50,021 bases of DNA from positions 1 to 50,021 of the IMG/VR virus record IMGVR_UViG_3300033153_006092; one strand, 5' to 3'. The first letter of the stretch is position 1. Each line of letters begins with the position of its first letter. A model generated the notes under the pieces. That model was not told the origin of the DNA and ran no database searches. It saw only the letters and a list, made by a program, of their open reading frames with translations. Made by a program: the position numbers and the translations under genes. Positions 292-24,421 of the stretch are shown here, in pieces. This DNA is from a virus.

Positions 292-558
292 ATGACTGAG
301 GAAGAAAGAATATTTATAGAAGGTTTATTTGATAACTTAAAAGAAGATATAAAAGAACTAAGGGGCGATGTAAAAAACTTGCCTTGTAGTGAGAGGGGTG
401 AGAGATTAAGTACATTAGAGGCTGTTCAAACTGCTAAAGATAAATACAATGATATAGCAAGGGAAAATAAAACACTTAGTATTAGAAAATGTCTTTTACT
501 ATTTGCTGTTTTTCAGCTTATATATATGGCGGTTAATTTATGGGTGAGTGCAAGATGA
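292..558 (+). CDS. Small coiled-coil protein with C-terminal membrane segment, possible lysis protein
   Basis: The product is about 88 aa starting MTEEERIFIEGLFDN. It has a charged helical part with a spacer (KNLPC) and a predicted coiled coil, then one hydrophobic segment near the C-terminus (CLLLFAVFQLIYMAVNLWV) and a short basic tail. This layout resembles XhlA-type haemolysin/holin-associated proteins, but the match is by architecture only. I chose ATG 292 over ATG 274 because GAGGG at 282-286 is well spaced for it. It sits directly after the tail spike and just before two other small genes, including a second membrane protein at 1049, so a holin/antiholin pair is possible. Confidence 0.6.
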   Translation: MTEEERIFIEGLFDNLKEDIKELRGDVKNLPCSERGERLSTLEAVQTAKDKYNDIARENKTLSIRKCLLLFAVFQLIYMAVNLWVSAR

Positions 559-1052
559 TGGATTTTGATATTTTAGCAGGTACAGGTAAACTTATTATAG
601 ACAATAAACATAGTTGGGGTGATCAACTTAGGATTGTTAATAAGTATAGTTATTGCCTAAAAATATTAAGGTTGAAATATCCTAATATAAAAGGTAGTTA
701 TCATAAACATCTTAAAAAGAGAGAAACGTGGTTTGTATTAGAAGGGGTTGTGTATGTTAAAATTCTTAGAAATGAATCTGATGGTATCGAATATTTAACT
801 TTATATCCTGGTGATAAATTAGATATAAGTGATGATAAACCTCACCAATTTTGGTGTTCTGTGCCGTCTATAATTATTGAAGTTTCTACCCATGATAATG
901 ATAAAGATACTTATAGGTATAATGAAAAGGATGGGGAGTTTTATAATGAAGATGGTGATAAATATATTTCTAAAAAGGATCAAATGAAGGCGTGGCATAA
1001 AGAGTTAGAAAATGATTATAGAAAACATATATTAGGATTTCCAAAACCATGA
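555..1052 (+). CDS. Cupin-fold protein, sugar-isomerase-like
   Basis: The product is about 165 aa. A single cupin barrel is visible: GSYHKHLKKRETWFVLEG supplies the first metal-site histidines and glutamate, and YPGDKLDISDDKPHQFW supplies the second motif with its histidine. This H-x-H...E...H pattern is that of metal-binding cupins such as type II mannose-6-phosphate isomerases and related sugar epimerases. The C-terminal third (about residues 115-165) is highly charged and unrecognised. The start at 555 is favoured by GGGTGAG at 541-547, and it overlaps the previous stop. Given the sugar island at 5183-12376, a role in sugar metabolism is attractive but unproven; it could also be a structural or regulatory cupin. 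Confidence 0.65.
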   Translation: MMDFDILAGTGKLIIDNKHSWGDQLRIVNKYSYCLKILRLKYPNIKGSYHKHLKKRETWFVLEGVVYVKILRNESDGIEYLTLYPGDKLDISDDKPHQFWCSVPSIIIEVSTHDNDKDTYRYNEKDGEFYNEDGDKYISKKDQMKAWHKELENDYRKHILGFPKP

Positions 1053-1239: not shown

Positions 1240-2169
1240 ATGTTTTACAAAAAAGCGGATGGTAGTATTATAGATGAACAAGGAAATGCGGTCACAAATA
1301 TTGTATTAAACACAGATGGTAGTTATACAGATTCAGAAGGTAAAGTTGTTGAGGTACAAACAGAGGCATCTGCTCAACCAACAATAGCAGATTTACAAAA
1401 TGAGTTAATTGAGGTAAAACGGCAAAATACTTTATTGAAAGGGAAAGCGCAAGATTTTGATGTATTGATGCAGGATAGGGAATTTGCCCAATGGGCGTTA
1501 GATAGAAGTCAACGTGATCTATCTAATAAACCAACACAGCAGGTTCAGCAACCTGTAAATCAACAACAGCCAAATGATAATCCATTTGCAGAATACCAAG
1601 ATGCCGAAGGTTTGCAAACATTGACTAATACAATTACCCAGAATGTATTAGATGCAATTAGCCCACGTTTTGAAGCAATAGATAAAACAATAGGTCAGAA
1701 GTTTGAACCATTATTGCAAAATCTTTCACAAAATAGAATTGAAGCTGATTTTAATGCTTTAGTACAACAGGCTGCAACCAATAAAGAATTTTATCCTATT
1801 GATCCTACTTCGATTAGAAAACAAATAGATTATGAAAGGCAAAAAAATCCTAATTTAAATATGCAACAGGCGTATGATTTAACTTGTGCAACAATGAATA
1901 GAGAGGGGTTAATAACTCGACCTCCTATTCAGACAATGGGAAGCGGTTCTCAGGAAGGTGGTCAAGGAGGAAATATATTAACTAGACCTGCTGGTGGGCA
2001 AACCACTATAAAAGCTGATGCAGGTAAATCAACGTTGGACAAGGCATTAGACGCTAAAAATAAAGGTGGTGATGAAAATCAAAGGCGTAGTGTCAATGAT
2101 ATTATAGCTGAGGCTGCTAAACAGATGGAAGATAGTGGCAACCCGATTGATATTAGTGAATTATCTTAG
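1240..2169 (+). CDS. Capsid scaffolding protein (probable)
   Basis: The product is 309 aa, acidic and glutamine-rich with low-complexity stretches (QQVQQPVNQQQPNDN) and predicted coiled coil around residues 50-85 and 125-190, then a Gly-rich flexible part. These features, together with its place immediately before the major capsid gene, fit a phage scaffolding protein. No protease motif is seen, so it is unlikely to be a protease-scaffold fusion. The start at 1240 has AGGAG about eight bases upstream. Function is inferred from position and composition. Confidence 0.7.
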   Translation: MFYKKADGSIIDEQGNAVTNIVLNTDGSYTDSEGKVVEVQTEASAQPTIADLQNELIEVKRQNTLLKGKAQDFDVLMQDREFAQWALDRSQRDLSNKPTQQVQQPVNQQQPNDNPFAEYQDAEGLQTLTNTITQNVLDAISPRFEAIDKTIGQKFEPLLQNLSQNRIEADFNALVQQAATNKEFYPIDPTSIRKQIDYERQKNPNLNMQQAYDLTCATMNREGLITRPPIQTMGSGSQEGGQGGNILTRPAGGQTTIKADAGKSTLDKALDAKNKGGDENQRRSVNDIIAEAAKQMEDSGNPIDISELS

Positions 2170-2180
2170 GAGTAAAAATA

Positions 2181-3308
2181 ATGATACTGTTATTGGCTAT
2201 TTCTCTTATTGCATTTGGTATACTACTAAGTGTAGCTACCGCATATGCAGATATAACACAAGGCCAAAAAGATGAACTTCTAGCCACCACTTTACAGCTA
2301 CAAGAAACTGAGTTAATTAAACATACCTATTTGGAAAATCCTATATATGTTTTCTTTTCTAATAGTAGATATACTAAAAAAGTAAAAGGTGGTCATGAAA
2401 TTCGGTTTCCGGTTGTACTTGATAAATCGGACACTTTTGATTGGTTTGGTGTTGGAAGTACATTTAATCCACAACCTAAAAAGATATTAGGTTGGTCACA
2501 TACGGAATTAAAACAGGGTGCAGGTCATGTTACTTTTGAAGATGTAGAATTGTGGCAAGCCAGTGGCCCTGGTAATTTTGTAGGAATGGTAGAAGCAAAG
2601 ACTGAGGAACTTGAACAGTCTATAGGCGAGTCATTGAATTTGACTGCTTGGGGAGATGGAACAGAGGATGGTGGATTAGCACCTACTGGTTTGACTGGTC
2701 ATATTCCTAATCCGCCTACAAGTGGTACATATATGGGTCATGATTTGTCTACAGAAAATTGGGGTAGATGTTGGTATAATGATAATGAGACTATTGGCCC
2801 ACATTCATTGACAAGCCCAACTGGTAATGCCCCGCATACAGAAGGTGCAATAGGAGATATAAGTGATAGATATCCACTTATAATAGATTCTCTTAACCTT
2901 ATGTATGCTTCATGTGTTAGTAATAGTGATAATAAAAGTGATATTTTTCATATTACCGATTTGCAGACACAATTGTGGTATAAACAAATTCCATTTAGAT
3001 GCCCCGGTTTTGATATAGGTGTAACAGAGGGGCCATTTAATATTGGAATTGAAACTGCTCATTTTATGGGTTCGCCAATTATTCCAGATACAGTTGATAA
3101 TGGTGCAATAGAAGGCGAGTGGCGTATGGTTAATATGCGGTATTACAATATGTATATTGACACTGACCATTTCTTCAAATGGGTTGGGCCACGTTCTCCT
3201 TATAATGCTCTAAGAACTTCAAAGTATCTGGTTGTGCGTTTCCAATGGGTTAACAAATTCCCAAGAAAGCAAGGGCTTTTAGTCGGAATAGCTACTTGGC
3301 AGGCTTAA
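2181..3308 (+). CDS. Major capsid protein with unusual hydrophobic leader
   Basis: The product is 375 aa. The body matches the phage capsid family that starts with a DELLATTL-type helix, followed by a segment on extended arms (GGHEIRFPVVLDKSD), a helix with KTEELEQSIGESL and GDGTEDGG, which is the HK97-like fold used by many short-tailed phages. Unusually, about 23 hydrophobic residues precede this (MILLLAISLIAFGIL... ending ATAYA), looking like a signal peptide with an AYA|D cleavage site. The start at 2181 has AGGAG eight bases upstream and no good in-frame start lies closer to the conserved part, so the leader appears real. It follows the scaffold and precedes a decoration-like gene. Confidence 0.8.
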   Translation: MILLLAISLIAFGILLSVATAYADITQGQKDELLATTLQLQETELIKHTYLENPIYVFFSNSRYTKKVKGGHEIRFPVVLDKSDTFDWFGVGSTFNPQPKKILGWSHTELKQGAGHVTFEDVELWQASGPGNFVGMVEAKTEELEQSIGESLNLTAWGDGTEDGGLAPTGLTGHIPNPPTSGTYMGHDLSTENWGRCWYNDNETIGPHSLTSPTGNAPHTEGAIGDISDRYPLIIDSLNLMYASCVSNSDNKSDIFHITDLQTQLWYKQIPFRCPGFDIGVTEGPFNIGIETAHFMGSPIIPDTVDNGAIEGEWRMVNMRYYNMYIDTDHFFKWVGPRSPYNALRTSKYLVVRFQWVNKFPRKQGLLVGIATWQA

Positions 3309-3320
3309 CTGGAGGATATT

Positions 3321-4193
3321 ATGGGTCAGAAATTTGAACAAAAACGAAACGAGGTTACATTTCAATATAATCTTGACCAATGTGAAACTTGGACAAATTA
3401 TATTACGTACCCTCAGAGATTTGCTGGTATGCGAGTCGGTGCTGATCGTTGGGAAAATGCCATGATGGGCGATGGTGTTTATAGACGTATTAGAGTAAAT
3501 GGGTTGGCAAAGTTTAGATGGGTATGCAACCGTTCTGGTAATACGCTCACAAGAGGGACTTTGGTTTCTTTTAAGAGGGCTACTTGGACAGCAACTAGTG
3601 GTTCTACTTCTACGGTTGTTGCCGCAGTTGGGTCATTTGTAGAAGATGAAAATCTGTGGGATAATTTAATTGTTTTGCAAGATGCTGGTGGTGCCGGTGC
3701 GGCACCTGAAGGTGAAGCCGGTATTATAGTAAAGGCAAAACTTAATACCGCAGAGACACATATTACTTTTACTTGTAGAACACCCGCCGCTAGTGGATTA
3801 TTCTCTGCGGCACCAGCTGCAGGTGATACTGGTGTTATTCGTTCTCGTTATAATATTATACCAATAACTGCTACAGATGGGATAGAGCAATTTGCTGGTG
3901 TGGTTGTTAGAGAAGATGGCATACCTGATAATTCATTTGGTTGGGTATGTTATGAAGCCGATGAAATTGAGATTAAATTGAAGGCTGGTACTGGTGTAAC
4001 AGCTAATCTTGGATTTATGGCTGCTGACGATGCTGACGGTTCCACTATAGCAAAGGCGAGAATAATAAATTCAACTGGTACTGACCTTGTTGGCGGTAAG
4101 GTACTTGGTACTGTATTGGAAACTATTGCCAATGATATTGCTGCTGATGTTGCTTGGTGTAGATTGAAGGCAGTTGGTGCTGACGAAGCATAG
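3321..4193 (+). CDS. Capsid decoration or minor head protein (probable)
   Basis: The product is 290 aa, rich in Ala, Gly, Thr and Val, with a C-terminal half of short beta strands (ITATDGIEQFAGVVVRED, DEIEIKLKAGTGVTANLGF, GGKVLGTVLETI). This composition resembles head decoration proteins found just after the capsid gene. N-terminal residues 1-70 are different and aromatic (FQYNLDQCETWTNYITYP). It is preceded by GGAGG at good spacing. A hairpin follows the stop at 4204-4225. The family is not firmly recognised; position and composition are the main evidence. Confidence 0.6.
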   Translation: MGQKFEQKRNEVTFQYNLDQCETWTNYITYPQRFAGMRVGADRWENAMMGDGVYRRIRVNGLAKFRWVCNRSGNTLTRGTLVSFKRATWTATSGSTSTVVAAVGSFVEDENLWDNLIVLQDAGGAGAAPEGEAGIIVKAKLNTAETHITFTCRTPAASGLFSAAPAAGDTGVIRSRYNIIPITATDGIEQFAGVVVREDGIPDNSFGWVCYEADEIEIKLKAGTGVTANLGFMAADDADGSTIAKARIINSTGTDLVGGKVLGTVLETIANDIAADVAWCRLKAVGADEA

Positions 4194-4203
4194 ATGTATT
4201 TGA

Positions 4204-4225
4204 CGGGGCGGCTTTTGTCGCCCCG
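4204..4225 (+). terminator. GC-rich hairpin after capsid genes
   Basis: CGGGGCG (4204-4210) pairs perfectly with CGCCCCG (4219-4225) around an eight-base loop, right after the decoration gene stop. No T-run follows, so it may be a weak or attenuating terminator, or an RNA-stabilising 3' end that keeps capsid message abundant relative to the genes downstream. Confidence 0.55.
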
Positions 4226-4245
4226 CAACAACTTGGAGAATATAA

Positions 4246-4851
4246 ATGGACGATAAATTAGCGGTTAAAAATGCGGAAATTGTTATAGTGAAGGGTACTC
4301 AAGAACCGCCTGTTGGAAAGTTGTATTATGGTTTACCATTAGAAAACGGTTTGACTCCAGTGATGATGCGAAGAGTTAGACGATCTGGGAAAAATAAGAA
4401 AATATCTGATAGAGTGGTATGGTATGAAAAGAAGATAATGCAAGAGAATGGGTTAGTAGTGCCATTAAGGGCGCATATAGTAGTTGCGCCAACAGAAAAA
4501 GAAATAGAGGCAAACGCCCTTTATCCAGTAGCAATATTTAATATCAGCCGTGCTAGATTTGATGGTATAATGAGAATAAAAAGGTGGAAAACTTTTCCTT
4601 TTTTAAATGATAATGGAGTACCCTATATGGTAACTAACGGAATATTAAAACCATTTTCGTTTGTAATTGTAAATAATAATTATATTCCCAATGAGCTACC
4701 AAACGGGAATACAGATGATGGAAATTGGCAAGTTGGTGCGCCTGTAACAGGCCAATATATAATAGAGTTCTTTAACAACTTAATAGAAAAAGCTAAACCA
4801 TTAGTTTATTCTACACAGGTTGCTAAAGCAATAGAGGCTAAAACAGAATAA
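4246..4851 (+). CDS. Unknown structural-region protein
   Basis: The product is 201 aa and is not recognised. It mixes basic stretches (MMRRVRRSGKNKKISDRVVWYEKK, residues about 40-63) with beta-rich segments and ends in a charged helix. No signal peptide or membrane segment is seen. It lies between the decoration gene and a tail-collar-like gene, starts with GGAG at good spacing, and its stop overlaps the next ATG. A head completion or connector role would fit the position, but nothing in the sequence shows it. Confidence 0.6.
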   Translation: MDDKLAVKNAEIVIVKGTQEPPVGKLYYGLPLENGLTPVMMRRVRRSGKNKKISDRVVWYEKKIMQENGLVVPLRAHIVVAPTEKEIEANALYPVAIFNISRARFDGIMRIKRWKTFPFLNDNGVPYMVTNGILKPFSFVIVNNNYIPNELPNGNTDDGNWQVGAPVTGQYIIEFFNNLIEKAKPLVYSTQVAKAIEAKTE

Positions 4852-5204
4852 TGATATTGACAATAGGAAAACAAAGAGCGGCATCTGTATTAACTAACAA
4901 TTCGTATATTACTCATCTTGCGGTAGGTGATGATGATACGGATGAGACAGCTGGTGATTTAGCTCTCGGTAATGAGATATACCGAGTTGCTTTAACTACG
5001 GTATCACAGAATGATCAGGTATGTTGGGGCGTTGCTACTATAACAGCTAGTGATATTGGTGCTGGTTCTTATACTATTAAAGAGTTCGGTTTTGTCGATG
5101 CGGCAAGTGGAGGCCATTTTCAATGCAGAGTGGTGTTAGATACAGGAATAACTATAACAGGCGCTCAGAAACTAATAATAGTATGGGGCGAAGTGTTTCC
5201 GTAA
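4851..5204 (+). CDS. Small tail-fibre/collar-type domain protein
   Basis: The product is 117 aa. The pattern ITHLAVGDDDT...LGNEIYRVALTT...ATITASDIGAGSYTIKEFGFVDA...KLIIVWGEVF resembles the N-terminal domain of phage tail-collar fibre proteins, where short repeats of this kind form the attachment point of a fibre. Here the domain stands alone. The start overlaps the previous stop (TAATG) and the last 22 bases overlap the start of the glycosyltransferase gene at 5183. It is probably a virion protein, but the exact site is unknown. Confidence 0.6.
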   Translation: MILTIGKQRAASVLTNNSYITHLAVGDDDTDETAGDLALGNEIYRVALTTVSQNDQVCWGVATITASDIGAGSYTIKEFGFVDAASGGHFQCRVVLDTGITITGAQKLIIVWGEVFP

Positions 5205-6172
5205 TAGAGAGAATAACCCGAGGTTTTGGTGATGGGATAATGCTTCGTCCTGCTATTATTGGATATATGAAAAAGTACCCTACTTATGATGTTAAGTTAC
5301 ATATAAGAGAACCAGAAGCATGTGTGTTTGAGGATATTGAAGGTTTAGATATTGTACCTATATCAACATTTTCTAAAAGTAAATCGGTTATAAGTGATAA
5401 AGATTCTATTACTAGAGCCAAAAGAAATAGATTAAAGCGTTATAATTATTCTAAACAACTTATAGAAGGTTATAATAATCCTATTATATATAGAGTATCC
5501 GAATCTTGCGCCAAGTATGAAATGGAACATATAGATAATGTTGATAAGTCTAGGCAAGAAATTTTTTGTGATGAACTTAATGTACAATTTGATATGGCAA
5601 ATTACAATGTTAAATTTTCTTTAGAAGAAGAACAATTTGCAGATGATTTTCTTGGTGGTATAAGTAGAGCTATTGGTATTCATATACAAACTGCAGATAG
5701 TTGGCGTGATTATAGATATATGTATTTAAGAAAGCGCCAAACAAAAATGTGGGATTTGGTAGATTATATAGCCAAAAGATTTAATGGTTATATAATAACT
5801 TTTGACAAAGATTGTAAATATGAAGGGAGGCAAAAGAATGTAAAATCTTTGGCTAATGTAACGTTTAGGCAGGCATGGGTTGTAATGTCTAGGATGCTTT
5901 TAGGTATTGGCCCAGATTCTGCTGGAATTCATGCTTTTGGTTCGACATTTGTTCCAACTTACGGATTATTTGGCCCGACTAATCCTAGACACAGGATGCT
6001 TTATCCTTACGTTGGTTGGCCAGATAAAGGAGATTGTCCATTTGGTAAACAATATTGTTGGTATAATTATTGTCAAAATAATGGAAAACCAATGGTATAT
6101 TGTTTGAATAGGCGGTCAGTTAAATACTATTGGGATGATATAAAGCGGAAAATGGGGAGGTTTATAAAATGA
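5183..6172 (+). CDS. Glycosyltransferase family 9-like (heptosyltransferase-like)
   Basis: The product is about 329 aa. Features of the GT-B heptosyltransferase type are an N-terminal loop RGFGDGIMLRPAI and, late in the protein, LLGIGPDSAGIHAFGSTFVPTYGLFGPTNP, the nucleotide-sugar region typical of GT9 (PDSG..H.A...G.P...LFGPT). The C-terminal 60 residues are Cys/Trp/Tyr-rich (CPFGKQYCWYNYCQNN) and may bind metal. A longer frame opens at 5123, but the first residues there overlap the previous gene and look unrelated; ATG 5183 fits the family. This is the first gene of the modification island, and its stop overlaps the next start by four bases. Confidence 0.75.
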   Translation: MGRSVSVIERITRGFGDGIMLRPAIIGYMKKYPTYDVKLHIREPEACVFEDIEGLDIVPISTFSKSKSVISDKDSITRAKRNRLKRYNYSKQLIEGYNNPIIYRVSESCAKYEMEHIDNVDKSRQEIFCDELNVQFDMANYNVKFSLEEEQFADDFLGGISRAIGIHIQTADSWRDYRYMYLRKRQTKMWDLVDYIAKRFNGYIITFDKDCKYEGRQKNVKSLANVTFRQAWVVMSRMLLGIGPDSAGIHAFGSTFVPTYGLFGPTNPRHRMLYPYVGWPDKGDCPFGKQYCWYNYCQNNGKPMVYCLNRRSVKYYWDDIKRKMGRFIK

Positions 6173-6852
6173 GATTTTTTAGGCGGTCACAGGTAAAACA
6201 AAGTTATATATCTTATGTTTCAGAGCGGTCTGTTAGAGGTTTACATGATACAATTTTAAGAACTGAAGAACCAAAATATTGTTTAGAAATAGGTTTGAAT
6301 GGTAAAAGTGAAGATTGTATTACATTAGATCTTGGTTCAAAAGCTGATATAGTTGGAGATATTAGAGGTGCTTTTGCACAACATGGTGGATATAAACCTG
6401 TTGAAGAAATTGAAAAATTGCCATTAGATTATTTTCATCTTATTAAAGCGGTGCATGTTATTGAGCATATAGAATGGTTGTATCAACAAGTAATGTTTGA
6501 CTGGTTTTTTGATTTAATTGCACCAGGCCACTATCTTTATGTAGATACGCCAAACTTAGATTATATTATTGAGATATATAATAATGGTATTCAGTCCATG
6601 AATAAAGGTAACAAGTTAGAATATCCAATGTCTGACCATCCAGATTTTACAAAAGATAGGTATATAGAGAATTTTACACCATGGGTTAATTATAAGATAT
6701 TTAGTGGTTGTAGTCCTGGTGATTATCATCATACCTGTTTGAATAGTATTTGGTTGGGTAATCTTCTACATGCCGCTGGTTTTGAAAATATAAAAATACA
6801 TAGTGGTAGGTCATTGATTGCTATTGCTATGCGACCGAAGGAGAGCTTGTAA
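6169..6852 (+). CDS. SAM-dependent methyltransferase (class I-like)
   Basis: The product is 227 aa. A shortened SAM-binding region is suggested by YCLEIGLNGKSEDCITLDLGSKADIVGDI, followed by LIKAVHVIEHIEWLYQQVMFDWFFDLIAPGHYLYVDTPN. The HVIEH motif and the following PG turn are hallmarks of type 11/predicted sugar-pathway methyltransferases. The glycine-rich loop is weak, so the cofactor site may be altered. A good Shine-Dalgarno (GGGGAGG) precedes the ATG. Its neighbours suggest a sugar as substrate, though a protein or lipid cannot be excluded. Confidence 0.7.
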   Translation: MRFFRRSQVKQSYISYVSERSVRGLHDTILRTEEPKYCLEIGLNGKSEDCITLDLGSKADIVGDIRGAFAQHGGYKPVEEIEKLPLDYFHLIKAVHVIEHIEWLYQQVMFDWFFDLIAPGHYLYVDTPNLDYIIEIYNNGIQSMNKGNKLEYPMSDHPDFTKDRYIENFTPWVNYKIFSGCSPGDYHHTCLNSIWLGNLLHAAGFENIKIHSGRSLIAIAMRPKESL

Positions 6853-8285
6853 TGGCTATTAAATTAAATTGCGGTGCAGGCGGAGTTATTCTTTCAAAAG
6901 AAGATGGTTGGATAAATATTGATATTAGGCAATTAGATGGTATAGACCTGGTATTAGATTTGGAAAACAATGATTTTCCATACGAAGATAATTCGGTAGA
7001 TGAAATTAGGTTACAAGATTTTTTAGAACATTTGAGTAAAGATAGGCAATTACCGTTTTTAAATGAAGTACATAGAGTAATGAAATTAAATGGTAAATTA
7101 TTTATTCAGTTACCAGATTTGGAAACATTATCTAAACGGTATTGTAATGTTTTAGAAAACCCTACTAAGCTACAACACCCTTTAGATGCCTATCAATTAT
7201 CGAGTGCTTTATATGGTGGACAGGAATATGAAGGGAATTTTCATAAGTGGGGTTATGACCAATATACGCTTAGTCTTATATTAGAAGAAGTTGGGTTCTC
7301 AATTAGAGAGATAGGTTCTGACGGTGGTCAAAATTTGTTATGCCATGCTCAGAAAAGTCCTGCCGCATTTTATATAATGATTAGTGGTGGTTTGGGCGAT
7401 TGTTTACAGATATATTTCTCTAATCCACCATACTGTAATCATGAGGATTTAAAGGGAGTAAATTATTTTCCTACTGGTCAATTGTTGGCAAGTTTATGGC
7501 TTAAACGTTTGAAAAGTTTTAAGTTGAAACATCCTAATAAATCGGTGTATTTGATTATAGAATCACATAATCCTTCGGCTATAAGGTTCTTTGATAATGT
7601 ACCATATATAGAAGGTTGTATATCTAAACCTTGGGATTTACCTAAACCGTGGGAAGAAGATAAATGGAGTCAGGTGCATTTTGGTTTATACAATTTAGAA
7701 CATTCGTATAATCCAGAATTATATGAACCAGAAGAAGCCAAAGTATATTTGTCATCTTTAGAAGAAATGCAAGTAGATACTATTGTTAATAAGGGTGATT
7801 ATATTATTGTTCATCCATTTTCTGGCGTGTCTAGGGATAGGCAAGCTATTAACCAAGATCAGTATAAAGAGATTGTAAAGAAAATTATTAAGAAAGGTTT
7901 GAACGTTGTTGTTATAGGTGGTAGTTATAAGACTAATGTAGTTGGTAAGAAATATAATATAACAGAACAATTTGATATGAAGTGTGACGGTTTAATCAAT
8001 TTGGTGAATAAGAGTAGTATTGCTGTTACGGTTGAACTTATACATAGGGCAAAAGGTTTCATAGGAACTCATAGCTCTATGGTTCTTATGGCTTGGTATA
8101 AATCATTGCCAACAGTTTGTATTGTGCCAATGTACCATGATGGTGGTCAACCATGGGAAGAGTTTTTTGCCGATGAAGTTAATCCTACTACTTGGGGTAA
8201 TAGGCAACCATTTAATAAAACTGTCATGGTTGAAGATAGAGATATAGTTGATTTAGATGAAATAGTGGAGTGGGTGGTGAAATGA
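6852..8285 (+). CDS. Fused methyltransferase - GT9 glycosyltransferase
   Basis: The product is 477 aa with two domains. Residues about 1-170 form a predicted sugar methyltransferase (LNCGAGGV...GWINIDIRQLDGIDLVLDLE, DFLEHLSKD, EVHRVMKLNGKLFIQLPD). Residues about 175-477 begin with ISGGLGDCLQIYF and carry YIIVHPFSGVSRDRQAI, VVIGG and FIGTHSSMVLMAWYKSLPTVCIVP, the core of GT9 heptosyltransferase-like enzymes. Such fusions suggest sequential transfer and methylation of one sugar. The gene starts one base within the previous stop and has GAAGGAGAG upstream. The substrate is unknown. Confidence 0.75.
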   Translation: MAIKLNCGAGGVILSKEDGWINIDIRQLDGIDLVLDLENNDFPYEDNSVDEIRLQDFLEHLSKDRQLPFLNEVHRVMKLNGKLFIQLPDLETLSKRYCNVLENPTKLQHPLDAYQLSSALYGGQEYEGNFHKWGYDQYTLSLILEEVGFSIREIGSDGGQNLLCHAQKSPAAFYIMISGGLGDCLQIYFSNPPYCNHEDLKGVNYFPTGQLLASLWLKRLKSFKLKHPNKSVYLIIESHNPSAIRFFDNVPYIEGCISKPWDLPKPWEEDKWSQVHFGLYNLEHSYNPELYEPEEAKVYLSSLEEMQVDTIVNKGDYIIVHPFSGVSRDRQAINQDQYKEIVKKIIKKGLNVVVIGGSYKTNVVGKKYNITEQFDMKCDGLINLVNKSSIAVTVELIHRAKGFIGTHSSMVLMAWYKSLPTVCIVPMYHDGGQPWEEFFADEVNPTTWGNRQPFNKTVMVEDRDIVDLDEIVEWVVK

Positions 8286-9328
8286 TATTAGGATTTTTAG
8301 GGTATGGAGAAGATAGTTTTTTCCATAGCGGAACAAATAAATGGATAGAGCCTAATGCTAACGATAGGTTTCCTAATATAGGTGTGTGGGGGCCGAATTC
8401 AAATGCTGTATATAGAAGGTTATATCCTAATGATCCATTTGTTATGTTAGTTACTAAAGACCCTAATCTTGAATTTGCTAATAGGTGTGATTTTATTATA
8501 TTTCAATCTTCTACAGGGCAAGACCCGTTATTCTTAGAACATTGCGATAAAATTGAAGTGCCTATAATTCATTGGCAACATGGTGGTTATGAAAATATGG
8601 TACAATTATCGTATGGTGCTGTTTTACGAAATAAGCAATGTATGGATAAATGTGATTTGGTTGTCACTACAGACCATAGATATGTGTCTCTTTATAAAAC
8701 GTGGACTAAAACACCTGTTATATATTGCCCGCTGCCTTATCCTGTTAATTATGCACTTAAAACTTTATCTAAAAGTGTAGATATTGAATATGATTTATTT
8801 ATACCGTATGGTATAAATATGACATATAATAATAGAAGAAATGGTTATGTCATGTCAGCGGTTGCTGATAAAATTATTACAAATGTAGAAAGTTTTAATA
8901 ATTGTTTAATGATAGATAGTGGTAATACTGATAAGTCGTGCGATTTTTTGCAACAAATGGGGTTCCAAAATATTACTATAATTGACCGTAAAAAATATAG
9001 TGAATATCTATTATCATTGAGTAGATGCAGGGTAATTATAAATTTAGATAGACACATGGCTTGTGGTAAGGTTGCTATTGATGCTGCTTTGGCTCGTAAA
9101 CCTGTTATAATGTCTAACCGAATTCCTTATGCCCAATATATATATAGTGGTATAAAATTACAAGACCCATTTGATGTTGATGCGGCATTGGCAACCGCAG
9201 AATTGATTCAACGAGGTGGGTGGGAACAGTCTTGGATAGATATGGCTTTTAACAGAGCACAGGATTTTAGTATGGAGAATGTTGGTAAGATATTGGAGGA
9301 AGCAGTTGGAAATCTTAAATTTAATTAG
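8282..9328 (+). CDS. GT-B-type glycosyltransferase (probable)
   Basis: The product is about 348 aa. It starts with MILGFLGYGEDSFFHSG and contains an acceptor/donor-like layout: HWQHGGYENM and CDLVVTTDHRYVSLY in the N-terminal half, and YLLSLSRCRVIINLDRHMACGKVAIDAALARKPVIMSNRIPYAQYIY in the C-terminal half, which resembles the donor-binding end of GT4-like enzymes (E/D...A.g.PVI.S). The usual EX7E is not exact. ATG 8282 overlaps the upstream stop as ATGA and is preferred to GTG 8270. Family placement is by pattern only. Confidence 0.6.
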   Translation: MILGFLGYGEDSFFHSGTNKWIEPNANDRFPNIGVWGPNSNAVYRRLYPNDPFVMLVTKDPNLEFANRCDFIIFQSSTGQDPLFLEHCDKIEVPIIHWQHGGYENMVQLSYGAVLRNKQCMDKCDLVVTTDHRYVSLYKTWTKTPVIYCPLPYPVNYALKTLSKSVDIEYDLFIPYGINMTYNNRRNGYVMSAVADKIITNVESFNNCLMIDSGNTDKSCDFLQQMGFQNITIIDRKKYSEYLLSLSRCRVIINLDRHMACGKVAIDAALARKPVIMSNRIPYAQYIYSGIKLQDPFDVDAALATAELIQRGGWEQSWIDMAFNRAQDFSMENVGKILEEAVGNLKFN

Positions 9329-10076
9329 TGCAGGTGAATGGTTAAATGGGAAACGTAAGGCTACCTATGAATCTTATATACAATGGTCAAAAAATAATGA
9401 TAGTGTAATTCAAGTATCATATCCAAGAAGCGGCAGACATTGGATTGAATCAATAATAAAGTGGAATTTATTAGGCAAAGATGGTTGTGCGGATATACAA
9501 AACTTTGACCCAAATAATTCTAAACATTATTATTTTACTCATGTAAAAAATTGGCCGGCATTTGATGCTAATGGTAAATATGTTTATTTGATACGTGACC
9601 CAAGAGATGTATTTGTGTCCTTTATGTATTACCGAACTTGTATAAAACAGTCTTTGACAGTAGAACAATCTTTCAATGATTATGATTTTCTTGGTAAAGA
9701 GGTTAAGTCGTGGAAAAATATGTTACAGGTTTTTATTGAAACTGATTGTATTATTATTCAGTATGAAAGGATGTGTTTGTACCCTAAAATAGAATTGAAT
9801 AGGATAGCCAGATTTATTGGTGTAGATATGGTGGATAATATTGACTGCCGTGATAATGGTCATTTTATTTATTATAATCCAGATAAACCTTGTCAACCAA
9901 TAAAGAAACCTTTTGAGTCAAATATAGAGAGATATAATATCAGATGTTTGACATGGCAAAAAAATCCAAGATTTACCAAAAAACATTTTGATATTATTTG
10001 GGGTGCATTGAAAGATATAATACCATACTTTGGTTATTTAGAAAACGGTCATTCGCTAAATTTATTAGAAAGGTAA
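9306..10076 (+). CDS. Sulfotransferase (PAPS-dependent)
   Basis: The product is about 256 aa. Two cofactor motifs of sulfotransferases are clear: VSYPRSGRHWIESII (5'-phosphosulfate-binding loop, usual form YPKSGTTW) near residues 38-51, and YLIRDPRDVFVSFMYY (3'-phosphate-binding region) near residues 94-109. It would move sulfate from PAPS to a sugar or other hydroxyl group. The open frame begins at ATG 9279, but GGAGGA five bases before TTG 9306 makes that the more likely start; either way it overlaps the preceding glycosyltransferase. PAPS would have to come from the host, since no sulfate-activation genes are present. Lys of the loop is replaced by Arg. Confidence 0.85.
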   Translation: MEILNLISAGEWLNGKRKATYESYIQWSKNNDSVIQVSYPRSGRHWIESIIKWNLLGKDGCADIQNFDPNNSKHYYFTHVKNWPAFDANGKYVYLIRDPRDVFVSFMYYRTCIKQSLTVEQSFNDYDFLGKEVKSWKNMLQVFIETDCIIIQYERMCLYPKIELNRIARFIGVDMVDNIDCRDNGHFIYYNPDKPCQPIKKPFESNIERYNIRCLTWQKNPRFTKKHFDIIWGALKDIIPYFGYLENGHSLNLLER

Positions 10077-10081
10077 AACTA

Positions 10082-10810
10082 GTGAGATTTTCTGTTATTA
10101 CTATTATTGCTAACCTAGATAAATATAGAAAATATAATTTTGATAAATGTGTTACACAATGGTTAAATCAAGACTTTGATGATTATGAATTTATATGCGT
10201 AGAAATGTCATATAAAAAAGATTTTTATATTCATGGTAATTATAATTACTATAGTGTGATTGGTGACGAATTCAAACGTGGTTGGTTGTTGAATGTTGGT
10301 GCAAAGAAATCTAAAGGCGATATATTAGTATTTGCTGATTCTGATATATTGGTACGAAAAGATTATTTAACTAAAGTTGACAATTGGTTTAAAATTGGTA
10401 TGAAAAGCGCAATAGGATTAAACCAATTGATTAGATTAAATCAAGATGGTTCAATTAAAACTTCTTGTATTGCTTCTATAAAAGGGGCGGCTGGCGGTAT
10501 AAATATATTTGATTCTCATTTCTTTTTTAAGTTATTTGGTGGTTGGAATGAAACGTTTACTTTTGGTGACGGTAATGATAATGATGGGATGTTCAGGGCA
10601 GAAGCCGCAGGTGGTCATGTAAAAATATTTCCAAGTCCAGTTATTCATCTTTGGCATCCTGGTAAAAAACATGGTATTAAAAATATGGAATTGTGGTTAT
10701 ATACACAACGGTATCCCGAAATAGTTACAGAAAAGATTTTGGAATTGGGTATTGGAAAAGACAAACCTACGGTTTATAATATTGAGGAATTGAAAAGGTT
10801 AACTAAATGA
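10082..10810 (+). CDS. Glycosyltransferase family 2-like
   Basis: The product is about 242 aa. It starts VRFSVITIIANLDKYRKYNFDKCVTQWLNQ and carries NVGAKKSKGDILVFADSDILVRKDYL, the GT-A fold with its DSD metal-binding triad, then GAAGGINIFDSHFFFKLFGGWNETFTFGDGNDNDGMFRAEAAG, typical of the galactosyl/polymerase-type C-terminal part. GTG 10082 is the likely start because GAAAGG lies eight bases upstream; an open frame from 9998 overlaps the sulfotransferase and adds unrelated residues. Its stop overlaps the next start (ATGA). It would add one sugar, probably using a nucleotide-diphosphate sugar from the host. Confidence 0.75.
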   Translation: MRFSVITIIANLDKYRKYNFDKCVTQWLNQDFDDYEFICVEMSYKKDFYIHGNYNYYSVIGDEFKRGWLLNVGAKKSKGDILVFADSDILVRKDYLTKVDNWFKIGMKSAIGLNQLIRLNQDGSIKTSCIASIKGAAGGINIFDSHFFFKLFGGWNETFTFGDGNDNDGMFRAEAAGGHVKIFPSPVIHLWHPGKKHGIKNMELWLYTQRYPEIVTEKILELGIGKDKPTVYNIEELKRLTK

Positions 10811-11370
10811 ATATACAAGGATGGATGAGTCAATCAGAACTTATGTGGTTACAAACTATGTCAAAATCAATGCCATCTAATTCTTTAATAGTAGAAGTTG
10901 GAACATGGAAAGGCAGAAGTACGGCCGCTATATGCAATGCCTTAAATAAAAAGAGCACTTTTGTTACTATTGATACATGGTTAGGTAATAGTAATTTATT
11001 TATATATCAAAATTCATCAGCATCTTTAGTTACTGATATATTTTTAGAATTTTTAGATAATATGAAATTACTGGGTCATAATTTTAAGTGGTATAAAAAA
11101 AATACTTTTGGTTTATTTTATCTAAGAATGAAATCAGTTGAGGCCGCAAAATTATTCGATGATAAAAGTATTGATTGGTTGTTTTTAGATGGTAATCATA
11201 CAGAGGCAGATAAAGATTGTGATGCTTGGGGAGTAAAGATAAAGAGCGGCGGAGTTATATCCGGCCACGATTTTACAAATGACTTTATTAAATTGACTAC
11301 AGATGTGAAACAAAGGTACCCAAATTTATCAGTGGCAACGAATACAGGTATATGGTATTCAACAATTTAA
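10807..11370 (+). CDS. Class I SAM-dependent methyltransferase (Methyltransf_24-like)
   Basis: The product is 187 aa. The SAM-binding loop reads LIVEVGTWKGRSTAAICNAL (residues about 28-47), followed by an acidic residue in TFVTIDTWLG. DWLFLDGNHTEADKDCDAW and IKSGGVISGHDF complete the family pattern seen in macrocin-O-methyltransferase-like sugar methylases. A metal site formed by D/H residues in DGNH and GHDF is likely. It has GAAAAGG upstream and overlaps the glycosyltransferase before it. Sugar O-methylation is the best guess. Confidence 0.75.
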   Translation: MNIQGWMSQSELMWLQTMSKSMPSNSLIVEVGTWKGRSTAAICNALNKKSTFVTIDTWLGNSNLFIYQNSSASLVTDIFLEFLDNMKLLGHNFKWYKKNTFGLFYLRMKSVEAAKLFDDKSIDWLFLDGNHTEADKDCDAWGVKIKSGGVISGHDFTNDFIKLTTDVKQRYPNLSVATNTGIWYSTI

Positions 11371-11383
11371 GGAAAGAAAATAA

Positions 11384-12376
11384 ATGAAAGATAATGAATA
11401 TTCATTATACAAATCTTTGCATCATCAATATGCGCTTAAAAATAAAATACCAGTATTATGCTATTTTTTTATAACGCATAAATGCAATAATAAATGTCCA
11501 ACTTGTTCTTCTCGATATGGTCAAAAGTTTGATGAAAATATAGAAATGCCTATTGAAGATGCGTTACCTTGTTTAATAAAATTGAAAGAGTTAGGACTAA
11601 AAGCTATTTCATTATCTGGCGGTGAGCCGTTGATGCATTCTAATTTTGGTGGTTTTGTAAGAGCCATAATTGGTATAGGATTAGATATTGCGGTTATAAC
11701 AAATGGTAGATTATTATCTAAGAAATATTTAGATGTTTTGAAATGGCTATCTTGGATTAGAGTTTCCATAAATGCAGTAAACCCAGATATATATAAATTG
11801 GTTCATGGTGCAAAAATGCCAGAGAGGTATTTTCTTAATCTAAAAGAGACTATTCCTAAGCTTAGAAAATACGGTGTAACTACTGGTGCTAGTTTTTTAA
11901 TAAATAAAAATAATATACAAGATATGCTTGATGCTGTAATAATGGCAAAAGAAATTGGTTTTGAAACATTTAGATTTAATTATACAAGAGATAGAGATGG
12001 TCTTATCTTTTACAAAGATGAAGATCTTTACAAGATAAAAGATAATTTATCTATCGCTATAAATTATAGTTGTGATAGTTTTAGAGTGCTTCCTTTGTCT
12101 GATAGGTTATTATATAAAATTAGTAAACCGTATACACATTGTTACCAAAGTGATATATCCTTATGTATAACTGCCGATGGCGGTGTATATGCTTGTCCAT
12201 TTTTGGCTAATAATCCACGTGCATTTTATGGTTCGATATATGAAAAATCTATAGATTATATTTGGTTAAACAAAAAAGAAATAGATGTGACTAAATGTCC
12301 TATATGTTGGCAAACAAAGAAGAATGAATTTATGGCATACTTAATGTCTAAACCTACTCATGTTAATTTTGTATAA
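11384..12376 (+). CDS. Radical SAM enzyme with C-terminal cysteine (SPASM-like) region
   Basis: The product is 330 aa. C34-x3-C38-x2-C41 (HKCNNKCPTC) is the radical SAM cluster site, followed by the GGEP motif in LSLSGGEPLMH-type context (ISLSGGEPL). The last 90 residues have several more cysteines (HCYQSDISLCITADGGVYACPF and KCPICW) in a SPASM-like pattern that binds extra iron-sulfur clusters. Relatives act on peptides, sugars or cofactors. In this island it may modify a sugar or a virion peptide. AAGGAAAG lies upstream. It closes the island; tail genes follow directly. Confidence 0.8.
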   Translation: MKDNEYSLYKSLHHQYALKNKIPVLCYFFITHKCNNKCPTCSSRYGQKFDENIEMPIEDALPCLIKLKELGLKAISLSGGEPLMHSNFGGFVRAIIGIGLDIAVITNGRLLSKKYLDVLKWLSWIRVSINAVNPDIYKLVHGAKMPERYFLNLKETIPKLRKYGVTTGASFLINKNNIQDMLDAVIMAKEIGFETFRFNYTRDRDGLIFYKDEDLYKIKDNLSIAINYSCDSFRVLPLSDRLLYKISKPYTHCYQSDISLCITADGGVYACPFLANNPRAFYGSIYEKSIDYIWLNKKEIDVTKCPICWQTKKNEFMAYLMSKPTHVNFV

Positions 12377-12386
12377 GGTGTAAACA

Positions 12387-12572
12387 ATGGCTACATTGAT
12401 ATGGCATAAGGTTGATACATTCTTATCAAAATTACGGTCTTGTCAAAGATGTTATAATCAATCTGGTGATGGTATGATATACTCTTTAGTAGTATACGAC
12501 TACCTTTATTTGACAGAAATTACAACTATTAGTTTAAAGGAAATTGATTCAACAACAGGAGTTAGATGGTAA
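12387..12572 (+). CDS. Small unknown protein
   Basis: The product is 61 aa (MATLIWHKVDTFLSK...) with two cysteines (CQRC) and a hydrophobic middle. It is not recognised. It has AAGGTG at good spacing, sits between the radical SAM gene and the tail adaptor gene, and overlaps the latter's start. It could be a small structural protein or a substrate peptide of the neighbouring radical SAM enzyme; nothing in the sequence decides. Confidence 0.5.
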   Translation: MATLIWHKVDTFLSKLRSCQRCYNQSGDGMIYSLVVYDYLYLTEITTISLKEIDSTTGVRW

Positions 12573-13276
12573 TGTTACTACATCAGATAAGAACAGCCTT
12601 TGCCGCCCGTATAGATAACACAGTGTATTGGACTACCGCACGTCAAAATGCCTTGGCGAATGATGCTATGCGGTCAATAGCTTCTCATTTTGGTACCAGA
12701 ATGAAAGGTTATCAAATATTATATACAGTAGATGGTCAACAACATTATGCTTTACCTGTAGATTTTATTGCCAATGATTTATTATATACTAACACTGATG
12801 AATTGATGCGAAAGATTAAATTTGTTGATAGCCCAGATGAAATATATAGCAAATATTATGACCCTGGTACTTATGAAGGTTCACCAGAACTTGCATTTAT
12901 ATGGCCTATAGATGAACGAGATAATCTATGGCTTTATCCTATACCAGATAAGCAATATACACTAGAATGGTTTTACTATAGAGAAGCACCTGAATTGGTT
13001 AATAATAATGATGAGCCTATGATAGCCAGAGAATTTCATACCTTTATTGTTGATTATATGGAAATGCGAACCAAAGTATTTGATGGCGAAATGAGTGAAA
13101 TGGAATATACGGCACTATGGGAAAAAACCTTAACAAAAATGAGTATGTTTAAAACCGCCAAAATGGCATTGACAGTAGAGAATACACCGGGTAATGCTAG
13201 AAGAAATTTTCCAGTTAGAGCTGGTGATTTGATAGACCCTGCTGATTCTAGCGGTGGAATATGGGGCATATCATGA
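12566..13276 (+). CDS. Head-tail/tail adaptor protein (podovirus gp4-like)
   Basis: The product is about 236 aa. The pattern of a helical N-terminus (NALANDAMRSIASHFG), a strand-rich middle (QHYALPVDFIANDLLYTN) and WLYPIPDKQYTLEWFYYREAPELV followed by helices is typical of adaptor proteins that connect the portal to the tail in P22-like and related short-tailed phages. ATG 12566 and ATG 12572 are both possible, with AGGAG at 12557-12561. It precedes the gp10-like gene, as in many podoviruses. Confidence 0.65.
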   Translation: MVMLLHQIRTAFAARIDNTVYWTTARQNALANDAMRSIASHFGTRMKGYQILYTVDGQQHYALPVDFIANDLLYTNTDELMRKIKFVDSPDEIYSKYYDPGTYEGSPELAFIWPIDERDNLWLYPIPDKQYTLEWFYYREAPELVNNNDEPMIAREFHTFIVDYMEMRTKVFDGEMSEMEYTALWEKTLTKMSMFKTAKMALTVENTPGNARRNFPVRAGDLIDPADSSGGIWGIS

Positions 13277-15045
13277 GAAAGATAAGGTACAAAGATATAG
13301 AACGGTTTGACGGTGGTTTTGTAGATGCTAATTCTCTGGATATTGGAAGCGAGTCTCTGAATATGATCAGATATGCAAGCAATATACGACAGAGAAGCGG
13401 ATCAGCTTGTCCTAGGGATGGACATAAAGTGAAATGTGACTTCACACTTGTTGCAGGAATTACAAATGCTTTACAAGCTGTTTATGAATATAAAAGAGAA
13501 CAGGATGTATTAGGTGTATATTCGCTTTACAGAGCGATTGTATTCAGCACAGGGAATGATATATACTATGTAGAGACAAGCAATCCTAATGTCGCTGTAA
13601 AGATGAATAGCGTTGCAATGAATAACGATATATATTGCGCTAATGCTTTTGACCATTTATTTATTGGGGATGGCGCACATGCTATGAGGGCGTGGAATGG
13701 AAACGACCTTTATCATACTATGTTCGCCGCACCAACTGTTGCATTGTCATGTATTCAAAGCCCTGGTGCTATTACGGGTTATAGAAAATATAAATACACT
13801 TTTTATACACCATCTGGTGGCACATACCCTTATGCTAAAGAGTCTAATGCTAGTGCTGTTATGCAGATACAGTATACTGGTGGACAACGTGGTACAATTA
13901 CTATGCAGTCACCATTCCCTGATAGCCAGATAACAATGTATAGATTATATGCGACAGAGGTTGGCCCAAACCCTGATTTATTAGTAGACTATAATCTTAT
14001 GACTACTCAGGCTAATAATGTATATGTAGATAATTATCCTACTTTTACCGGAGACGCTTTTAGTGATACAGACCGTGGTGTGCCTGATACATATAAATAT
14101 TTATTGTTTGATGGTTCAAGATTATGGGGTGCATATACAGAAGAACATAAGAATGAAATTGGTTGGTCATTAAATGGAAATCCATTCTATTGGCCAGCGG
14201 TTAATTATGAACGTATTGGTATAGATGATGGAGATTTTATAACTGGCTTAGGTATGATAGCAAACATACGGTACATCTTTAAGGAACATTCTATATGGGA
14301 ATGGACTGGTAACCCTGATGTTGCTACTGAAATAGTACCAGTTGCTAGACCTGATGCTAGTCAGAATATGACAAGATTGGCAGTTGGCTGCAAAGACTCT
14401 AGGACACTAACACAATGGGGGAACTCTTTAATATTCAGGTCATCTGATGGTCATGTATATATGTTAACCACCGATAGTATAACACAATTAAGTAGGTATA
14501 TTGGCTCGCAAATTACATTACTAGATTGGGGTGCCAAGGCATGTGTTCATAATGACTATTATATTATATCATCTGGTTTATTGACTTTAGTATGTGATTT
14601 ACGTAAAGGGGTATTTGGGTGGCAAGGATATGATACTGGTGTATATCCAAATTGCTTTTGTATAACTAATGATAATTATTGTATAGGTACAGAGGGCGAA
14701 AAGATAGTTCAGTATTATGATCCAACTGAATACCAAGATTATGGCGAAGATTTTACCAAAGAGATACAGCCGTGCTTTTTAAGAGTTGGTGGTGGGAATA
14801 CACAGTCTCTCTTTAGAAGTATTATAATAGATTCACCTAATCGTGGCGAAGATATAACAGTTGAAGTACATAACGAAAATGGTGTTATAGGTGCCGCTAG
14901 TAGTTTAACATACGAAGATACAGATTCTATATGTTATATACCTAGAGGCGCTAGAGGTGTATTTATGTCTGCAATATTATCATGGACTGAAAAAATTAAT
15001 ATTATAGGTGTATCATACGGGTATCAACCAGTTAGGAGGCATTAA
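13273..15045 (+). CDS. Tail/packaged-DNA stabilisation protein (P22 gp10-like)
   Basis: The product is about 590 aa starting MRKIRYKDIERFDGGFVD. It is all-beta with repeating blade-like segments (YYVETSNPNVAVKMNS, LFIGDGAHAMRAWNG, LLFDGSRLWGAYTE, YIFKEHSIWEWTGN, LIFRSSDGHVYMLT), the pattern of the beta-propeller-like tail hub of short-tailed phages. Length and position after the adaptor agree. The start at 13273 is favoured by GGGG six bases upstream; ATG 13261 is an alternative. It places this phage among podovirus-like forms rather than long-tailed ones. Confidence 0.7.
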   Translation: MRKIRYKDIERFDGGFVDANSLDIGSESLNMIRYASNIRQRSGSACPRDGHKVKCDFTLVAGITNALQAVYEYKREQDVLGVYSLYRAIVFSTGNDIYYVETSNPNVAVKMNSVAMNNDIYCANAFDHLFIGDGAHAMRAWNGNDLYHTMFAAPTVALSCIQSPGAITGYRKYKYTFYTPSGGTYPYAKESNASAVMQIQYTGGQRGTITMQSPFPDSQITMYRLYATEVGPNPDLLVDYNLMTTQANNVYVDNYPTFTGDAFSDTDRGVPDTYKYLLFDGSRLWGAYTEEHKNEIGWSLNGNPFYWPAVNYERIGIDDGDFITGLGMIANIRYIFKEHSIWEWTGNPDVATEIVPVARPDASQNMTRLAVGCKDSRTLTQWGNSLIFRSSDGHVYMLTTDSITQLSRYIGSQITLLDWGAKACVHNDYYIISSGLLTLVCDLRKGVFGWQGYDTGVYPNCFCITNDNYCIGTEGEKIVQYYDPTEYQDYGEDFTKEIQPCFLRVGGGNTQSLFRSIIIDSPNRGEDITVEVHNENGVIGAASSLTYEDTDSICYIPRGARGVFMSAILSWTEKINIIGVSYGYQPVRRH

Positions 15046-24298: not shown

Positions 24299-24421
24299 TC
24301 ATTCTCCCCCTTTCCAAATATCTTTCGCAATGGCAAGACTCCCACTGCGAAAGGTAGTGTTCTTCACTCGGTTTGTAAATAAGAAATCCGGTTCACCTAA
24401 TTCTCCTTTCAATATATCCAT
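24299..24421 (-). CDS. Small ORF between endolysin and membrane protein
   Basis: This 40-aa frame (MDILKGELGEPDFLFTNRVK... ending DIWKGGE) overlaps the endolysin stop by 13 bases and ends seven bases before the next gene's start, filling a space that would otherwise be empty in a gap-free operon. Its own ribosome site is weak (GACGGG upstream). No family is recognised. It could be a real small lysis-region gene or chance. Confidence 0.4.
   Translation of the reverse strand: MDILKGELGEPDFLFTNRVKNTTFRSGSLAIAKDIWKGGE

Follow-up and report, generated by a model that had tools for sequence, protein, structure and literature searches.

Why should a podovirus-like phage carry, between its capsid genes and the adaptor that joins head to tail, a compact run of genes that read as enzymes making and modifying a glycan? 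Phage particles are usually regarded as bare protein. The window analysed here is the whole stretch of 50,021 nucleotides of IMGVR_UViG_3300033153_006092, probably a complete genome, and the island occupies positions 5183-12376. The preliminary description had reported eight consecutive same-strand genes with ATGA-type overlaps, placed between capsid and tail genes, and all of this was confirmed: eight ORFs lie in a row on the + strand, tightly coupled, with the capsid module upstream (major capsid protein at 2181-3308) and an SU10-type head-tail adaptor downstream (12566-13276). The flanking genes are the following:

540..1052, + strand: small cupin (phrog_7851, 'cysteine dioxygenase')
2181..3308, + strand: major capsid protein, Mx8-type (phrog_9953, 4e-28; tblastn to Mx8/Mx9)
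3321..4193, + strand: 290-aa protein, probable head decoration or structural protein (by position only)
4246..4851, + strand: 201-aa structural-operon protein (by position only)
4851..5204, + strand: 117-aa fibre-like protein (PF23140, 21.2 bits, below the cut-off of 27; phrog_18500, 8e-10)
12387..12572, + strand: small 61-aa ORF between island and adaptor
12566..13276, + strand: SU10-type head-tail adaptor, the downstream border (PF24175, 59.3 bits, 9e-16)
13261..15045, + strand: head-closure or phage-stabilization-like protein, whose homologue adjoins the adaptor in record L170

Regarding the coupling, the first island gene starts 22 nt within the preceding structural gene (4851..5204). Numbering the genes g1 to g8, 4-nt ATGA overlaps were found at g1/g2, g3/g4 and g6/g7, and g2 and g3 share 1 nt (TAATG). 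The g4/g5 overlap is 23 nt, given the choice of TTG 9306, preceded by GGAGG, as the preferred start of g5, and the remaining spacers measure 5 nt (g5/g6) and 13 nt (g7/g8). The island is thus linked to virion genes both by its overlap with a structural gene and by its place between capsid and adaptor. Its G+C content is 6 points below that of the neighbouring genes. A promoter and terminator scan of the sequence gave no surplus over shuffles and is therefore uninformative on the limits of the operon. The phage also encodes pectate-lyase-like tail spikes, and a separate DNA methyltransferase is found at 28287-29174.

The eight genes, all on the + strand, read as follows:

5183..6172, + strand: g1, putative GT9-like glycosyltransferase (PF01075, 14.1 bits, below the cut-off of 22)
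6169..6852, + strand: g2, class I SAM methyltransferase (Methyltransf_23, PF13489, 28.2 bits, cut-off 27)
6852..8285, + strand: g3, methyltransferase-GT9 fusion (Methyltransf_11, PF08241, 24.6 bits, cut-off 21.2)
8282..9328, + strand: g4, orphan, possible GT-B glycosyltransferase (unconfirmed)
9306..10076, + strand: g5, PAPS-dependent sulfotransferase (Sulfotransfer_1, PF00685, 55.5 bits, cut-off 22, 7e-15)
10082..10810, + strand: g6, GT2 glycosyltransferase, GTG start (PF00535, 22.2 bits, cut-off 23.3)
10807..11370, + strand: g7, Methyltransf_24 methyltransferase (PF13578, 56.8 bits, cut-off 26.3, 5e-15)
11384..12376, + strand: g8, radical SAM/SPASM enzyme (Radical_SAM, PF04055, 71.9 bits, cut-off 29.5, 9e-20)

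By their domain scores, the three methyltransferase domains, the sulfotransferase and the radical SAM/SPASM enzyme are firmly identified, and here the earlier assignments stood, with g2, g3, g5, g7 and g8 all above the Pfam cut-offs. The sulfotransferase g5 also matches PDB sulfotransferases and keeps its PAPS-binding motifs (YPRSGRHW and RDPRDVFVS, 5'-PSB and 3'-PB) and a candidate catalytic His; a search for phage relatives gave no match to it, and a sulfotransferase alignment scan added no viral relatives. In g7 the motif EVGTWKGRS is intact, and its nearest solved relative is PDB 6g7d (E=7e-4), which we take to be the mannoside 1-O-methyltransferase MeT1. In g8 the motifs CNNKCPTC (CxxxCxxC) and GGEP are intact, the SPASM domain scores 22.6 bits (PF13186, cut-off 21.5, 1e-4), and the alignment shows an HxNF[VI]-type C-terminus common to other phage radical SAM proteins.

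The glycosyltransferase calls fared less evenly. The GT2 protein g6 and the GT9 half of g3 (PF01075, 20.6 bits, slightly under the cut-off of 22) score near threshold, and the GT9 similarity of g1 is weak. Nevertheless, these two near-cut-off domains, together with the match of g6 to a phage galactosyltransferase family (phrog_1721, 2e-7) and its intact DSD motif, indicate that the phage encodes glycosyltransferases. The earlier 'GT-B-like' label of g4 is unconfirmed, because there was no convincing Pfam, PHROG, NCBIfam or PDB match and the AlphaFold model made without an alignment was useless (pLDDT 32). Furthermore, no relative of g4 was found in 26 island-bearing records, and pairwise comparisons of g4 with the other island glycosyltransferases, and of g1 with the GT9 half of g3, gave nothing usable.

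Is this arrangement a peculiarity of one genome? We defined the slot as capsid, small gene(s), glycan genes and SU10 adaptor, and the same layout was found in other phages. In ctQWt234 (MW202801) the capsid gene and a 123-aa protein are followed by radical SAM, GT2, PhyH, methyltransferase, NodB and GT4 genes and then the SU10 adaptor. In ctKR88 (MW202524) a 165-aa protein precedes a GT2-TPR-GT4 fusion, two further glycosyltransferases (the second a GT4) and two methyltransferases, before adaptor and closure, and one methyltransferase of this island is homologous to the methyltransferase half of g3. Record L116 carries a 124-aa protein, the GT2-TPR-GT4 fusion and a radical SAM gene before adaptor and closure. 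This fusion lies downstream of the capsid gene in all 12 retrieved IMG/VR contigs of the ctKR88-like lineage, and with a dN/dS of about 0.3 in the two pairs with unsaturated dS it is under purifying selection there. Altogether, glycan genes have repeatedly entered this slot, in three or more different capsid lineages, and the island is no chance insertion.

No other phage was found with precisely these eight genes, so the earlier remark that the combination was not recognisable stood for the set itself; it did not stand for the kind of island, since similar ones recur in uncultured podoviruses, phage enzymes are reported to glycosylate mycobacteriophage capsids, and a cultured cyanophage has an annotated cluster of sulfotransferase and glycosyltransferase genes. 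The preliminary description had named absence of the cluster from relatives as a refuting outcome; the cluster is indeed absent from the Mx8-type relatives, whose slot measures 0.6-3.8 kb in 67 cases, whereas other phages with the same layout do carry glycan genes. IMG/VR scans with single proteins (MCP, radical SAM, sulfotransferase, primase) returned almost no close relatives of this phage; adaptor sequences have diverged too far for pattern scans to work, and no stretch of the first MCP alignment was sufficiently conserved.

Regarding g8, GT2 genes are present in 27 of 45 virus records bearing a related radical SAM gene, versus none of 45 Mx8-type records. A GT2 gene lies within 3 kb of the radical SAM relative at 38 of 80 loci in virus records, always on the same strand (38/38). 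Of 80 loci of bacterial relatives, only 6 had a GT2 gene by a phage-derived profile. Elsewhere too, related radical SAM genes lie in head or tail modules: between portal/minor head and capsid genes (L097), soon after the capsid gene (L109), upstream of portal and capsid (L103), or, with a second sulfotransferase, upstream of terminase and portal (L098).

Differently composed sets at the same place in uncultured phages therefore suggest a sugar coating of the particle. Domains, operon coupling and the repeated presence of glycan genes in this slot lend good support to the earlier proposal of a phage-encoded glycan pathway that belongs with the virion genes and includes methylation and, probably, sulfation. 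As for its target, we slightly favour a virion protein, on which late, cytosolic enzymes would assemble an oligosaccharide that is methylated and probably sulfated. Judging from the operon position, the module would be expressed late. Donors would be host sugar nucleotides, SAM and PAPS; they are taken as host-supplied because no donor-making family was matched within the island. Two to four glycosyltransferases would assemble a short oligosaccharide, the three methyltransferase domains would add O-methyl caps, the sulfotransferase would add sulfate, presumably to the sugar rather than to protein, and g8 may alter the sugar or the acceptor by radical chemistry, in whatever order. The likeliest acceptor would be the capsid or a small head or fibre protein encoded directly upstream. 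The candidates there are the 290-aa protein, which matches no family, and the 117-aa protein, which weakly resembles podophage GP4 Gp80 as well as tail-collar N-termini, has weaker matches to tail-fibre PHROGs and gave a poor AlphaFold model without an alignment (pLDDT 45). The cupin gene that precedes the capsid gene is probably an outlying member of the system: its G+C content (29%) resembles that of the island, and homologues lie 3-5 kb from glycan-type radical SAM genes in five records (L107, L114, L115, L117, L143). The benefit may be an altered particle surface that changes adsorption, decay or recognition; the roles proposed earlier, camouflage, stability and superinfection exclusion, are alike possible.

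Two observations speak against a virion target. Island genes also sit away from capsid genes, in L170 on the other strand where the structural module has its distal end, and amid nucleotide-metabolism genes in HTVC008M, a T4-like Pelagibacter phage; and g1 and g4 are weakly or not classed as glycosyltransferases. The late operon position could also serve modification of the host surface, and we regard it as rather unlikely, although worth weighing, that the enzymes remodel host polysaccharide late, for superinfection exclusion or to stop released virions re-binding debris. The glycosyltransferase, methyltransferase, radical SAM and carbamoyltransferase islands of T4-like Pelagibacter phages do resemble LPS-type islands, and the pectate-lyase-like spikes imply that host surface glycans matter to this phage. 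WbuC-like cupins are found in O-antigen clusters, and the cupin has a WbuC match, sub-threshold as is its D-lyxose isomerase match. However, Gtr O-antigen seroconversion, likewise a phage-encoded glycan modification, requires membrane proteins (flippase, lipid-linked transferases), and this island has no flippase, polymerase or lipid-carrier transferase and, by Kyte-Doolittle, no multi-pass or other transmembrane-like protein, the single 1.77 peak of g8 lying within its radical SAM core. Moreover, repeated insertion in the slot in those capsid lineages argues against a host target, and co-transcription with capsid genes would be poor timing for superinfection exclusion.

SPASM radical SAM enzymes are often peptide maturases, and tyrosine can be sulfated by sulfotransferases. 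The island might then be movable cargo of separate protein-modifying enzymes (side-chain methylation or sulfation, SPASM-type peptide maturation) with no single glycan pathway, and peptide maturases are frequent among the NCBIfam matches of g8, none above cut-off. We consider this improbable: no precursor-peptide gene was recognised, g3 joins a methyltransferase to a GT9 domain, and GT2 genes accompany the radical SAM relatives in virus records as described.

It is very improbable that g8, amid unrelated cargo, serves defence or counter-defence as a viperin-like enzyme of the prokaryotic type, in spite of its PADLOC pVip match (5.8e-21) and a viperin as best solved match, as its NCBIfam viperin score is 61.8 against a cut-off of 180, the match is limited to the radical SAM core, the SPASM domain is above cut-off and its relatives are linked to glycosyltransferase genes. 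Some phage DNA-modification pathways do use glycosyltransferases and radical SAM enzymes, yet DNA hypermodification with glycosylated bases is just as hard to credit: the record lacks a thymidylate-synthase-type hydroxymethylase (PF00303; detected in 9 of 14 control genomes), the sulfotransferase and small-molecule-type methyltransferases fit badly, and the DNA methyltransferase gene is separate. We set both of these readings aside, and the Gtr reading with them.

Returning to the virion glycan, we advance only tentatively, and with some doubt, the fuller version: a sulfated, multiply O-methylated, radically modified oligosaccharide on capsid or head fibre, belonging to a widespread, unnamed class of swappable capsid-glycan islands that share one podovirus slot. 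If such islands are common in environmental podoviruses, with O-antigen-like turnover, virion surfaces may be under diversifying selection like bacterial surfaces, which would matter for how virions adsorb, decay and persist in nature. The slot would also give a simple genomic handle, glycan genes between capsid gene and SU10 adaptor predicting a glycosylated podovirus virion.

Known systems resemble parts of the island. PBCV-1 is a giant virus of eukaryotes, and its capsid is unrelated. In this chlorovirus, the virus-encoded glycosyltransferases/methyltransferases A064R and A061L build and O-methylate the capsid N-glycan (PMC9614988). It also has a fusion, GT-GT-MT, which differs from g3 in domains and order, and the part of that account available to us names no sulfation or radical SAM enzyme, whereas both gene types are present here. 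In mycobacteriophages Che8 and Rita, a precedent for a virion target, phage-encoded glycosyltransferases place glycans covalently on the major capsid protein, and in Maravista, an F1 phage, the transferase genes are close to the genome's 3' end (PMC11256854, the former citing Freeman 2023). The likeness is that of a tailed phage encoding its own glycosyltransferases, here for a predicted virion glycan, and the extract of that account names neither a sulfotransferase nor a radical SAM enzyme, both found in this island.

The ctQWt234 and ctKR88 islands occupy the same slot as ours and carry GT2, GT4 and methyltransferase genes and, in ctQWt234, also a radical SAM/SPASM gene, but differ in lacking a sulfotransferase, in their gene sets and in their capsid lineages; the open papers searched held no discussion of them. 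Finally, the cultured cyanophages S-SRM01, S-SKS1 and S-SCSM1 have annotated sulfotransferases, the type of g5. These are large phages, whose sulfotransferases lie outside the capsid-adaptor slot in the stretches viewed and match that of L098 rather than g5, and in S-SRM01 the gene is near a glycosyltransferase, a TPR protein and a nucleotide-sugar epimerase.

The stretch 5183-12376 of the window is occupied by eight genes, all of them on the + strand:

g1: weak GT9 match
g2: methyltransferase domain, firm call
g3: N-terminal methyltransferase domain, firm call, and a GT9 part scoring slightly under the Pfam cut-off
g4: orphan
g5: sulfotransferase, firm call
g6: GT2, scoring slightly under the Pfam cut-off
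g7: methyltransferase domain, firm call
g8: radical SAM (rSAM)/SPASM enzyme, firm call

On inspection of the sequence, g5, g6, g7 and g8 each had intact motifs for binding and catalysis. The closest solved structure to g7 is 6g7d, which we take to be the mycobacterial mannoside 1-O-methyltransferase MeT1 of methylmannose polysaccharide. An account of MeT1 is given in PMC9883506. Of the eight genes, seven start within the preceding gene or at most 5 nt from it, and the start of g1 falls inside a 117-aa structural gene, so that the structural operon seems to run on through the island. The G+C content of the island was 31.4% versus 37.4% for the remaining genes of the module examined, and every island gene was below all the other module genes examined, except a cupin gene (540-1052, 29.2%) and a 61-aa ORF (30.6%). 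The domain calls, the coupling on the + strand and the position bear out the preliminary description of an eight-gene island beside the capsid genes.

In order to compare the slot between the major capsid protein (MCP) gene and the SU10 adaptor gene, we scanned with Mx8-type MCPs and obtained 80 loci, 67 of which had both genes. The MCP-adaptor distance was 0.6-3.8 kb in these 67 loci versus 9.3 kb in the window, and none of the 45 Mx8-type records tested had a GT2 domain, so that, measured against the Mx8-type phages, the island has been acquired. Absence of the cluster from relatives had been proposed as the mark of a chance insertion; this absence holds for the Mx8-type phages, but elsewhere the slot is reused, being filled by glycan genes in three other virus contigs:

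ctQWt234: MCP, 123-aa gene, rSAM, GT2, PhyH, methyltransferase, NodB-like deacetylase, GT4, SU10 adaptor (unannotated ORF at 24303-25001 of MW202801.1, L004, recognised here), closure
ctKR88: MCP, 165-aa gene, GT2-TPR-GT4 fusion, more GTs and two methyltransferases, adaptor, closure
L116: MCP, 124-aa gene, GT2-TPR-GT4, rSAM, adaptor, closure

A further virion-module position was seen in MW202497.1 (L013), where two glycosyltransferase genes lie between terminase and portal (25152-29471).

A scan with the capsid family of ctKR88 and L116 gave 57 loci. The GT2-TPR-GT4 fusion was downstream of the MCP in 12/12 ctKR88-like contigs of an uncultured podovirus lineage (L262-L272, L305; L264 is short, and L268 and L116 are one contig). 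It was missing from all 14 of the more distant loci that had 4 kb or more of downstream sequence. The other island genes differ between the ctKR88-like contigs (additional GT2, GT4, rSAM in L267 and L116). In the two pairs with unsaturated synonymous sites, L270/L271 and L271/L272, dN/dS was ~0.34 and ~0.27 for the fusion, and ~0.09 and ~0.14 for the MCP. Going by the constant presence of the fusion and its dN/dS, this lineage stably keeps a glycosyltransferase next to its capsid gene under selection, with the extras shuffled. No relatedness was detectable between the capsids of the ctKR88-like group and of the window's phage, which makes the window an independent case.

The scan with an rSAM alignment yielded 80 virus loci. 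A GT2 lay within 3 kb of the rSAM gene in 38 of them, on the same strand in 38/38, although the GT2 profile was built from these loci and the count is partly circular. Among the 45 rSAM-bearing records examined for domains, 27 had GT2 and 24 had Methyltransf_23. Several rSAM relatives sit in structural modules:

L097: between portal/minor head and MCP
L109: after MCP, behind a sialyltransferase-like gene
L103: upstream of portal and MCP
L113: after neck genes
L098: with a second sulfotransferase in one cluster (1607-5932), directly upstream of terminase and portal

The L098 cluster is thus another case, independent of the window, in which an rSAM gene and a sulfotransferase gene go together, its sulfotransferase belonging to another subfamily. 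Nevertheless, contig L170 is a counter-example: its glycan island (three GT2, a g3-like methyltransferase, rSAM) is on the other strand, beyond the tail genes, and a g7-like methyltransferase lies elsewhere in the genome. Its closure gene is the sole detected relative of the window's.

Regarding the cupin gene, it is low in G+C like the island and lies outside it, upstream of scaffold and MCP. Five further virus contigs (L107, L114, L115, L117, L143) have a homologue 3-5 kb from their rSAM gene, and the cupin is likely a ninth member of the system. Three profiles touch it: cysteine dioxygenase, WbuC and lyxose-isomerase.

As for mechanism, host sugar nucleotides, SAM and PAPS would feed a short oligosaccharide, attached to a virion protein in the cytosol while particles assemble. 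The acceptor might be the MCP itself or a product of the small genes that separate MCP from island; such genes, homologous or not, are present in each case. The alternative, a Gtr-type envelope route, fits less well than direct transfer to protein because the island contains no membrane flippase or polymerase.

Virion glycosylation encoded by phages is a known kind. Capsid glycosylation has been reported in the mycobacteriophages Che8 and Rita (PMC11256854, citing Freeman 2023); in a chlorovirus, the GT-GT-methyltransferase fusion A064R makes a capsid glycan and adds methyl groups to it (PMC9614988). Cultured cyanophages, too, have annotated sulfotransferases, the one in S-SRM01 lying close to a glycosyltransferase and a nucleotide-sugar epimerase. 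In the open papers searched, we found no description of a sulfotransferase inside a phage virion operon, nor of the capsid-adaptor slot as a recurrent place for swappable glycan islands. The glycan pathway proposed beforehand stands in part, as a new enzyme combination within a known kind, and the reading of a sulfated capsid is plausible from domain identity and position.

The window, 50,021 bases, is the full IMG/VR virus record and, because an exact 95-bp direct repeat stands at both ends (1-95 and 49927-50021), very probably a complete genome that maps as a circle. We recognised the large terminase, SU10-like portal, Mx8-type MCP, SU10 adaptor, pectate-lyase-like tail spikes and primase/helicase; no close relative was present among the phage collection searched. 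Preceded by AGGAG, the MCP begins with a stretch that is hydrophobic and resembles a signal peptide (2181-2250, MILLLAISLIAFGILLSVATAYA); this is unusual in a capsid protein and absent from the aligned Mx8-type MCPs. Between portal and tail spikes, a large protein (42618-45248) carries a subtilase (S8) domain and, after it, several Big_2 Ig-like domains, and is possibly a virion-borne protease. The primase at 24781-27759, with an MCM-like helicase domain, is kin to those of vB_BboS-125 and Bacillus/Microbacterium phages, and the structural genes of this genome are podovirus-type.
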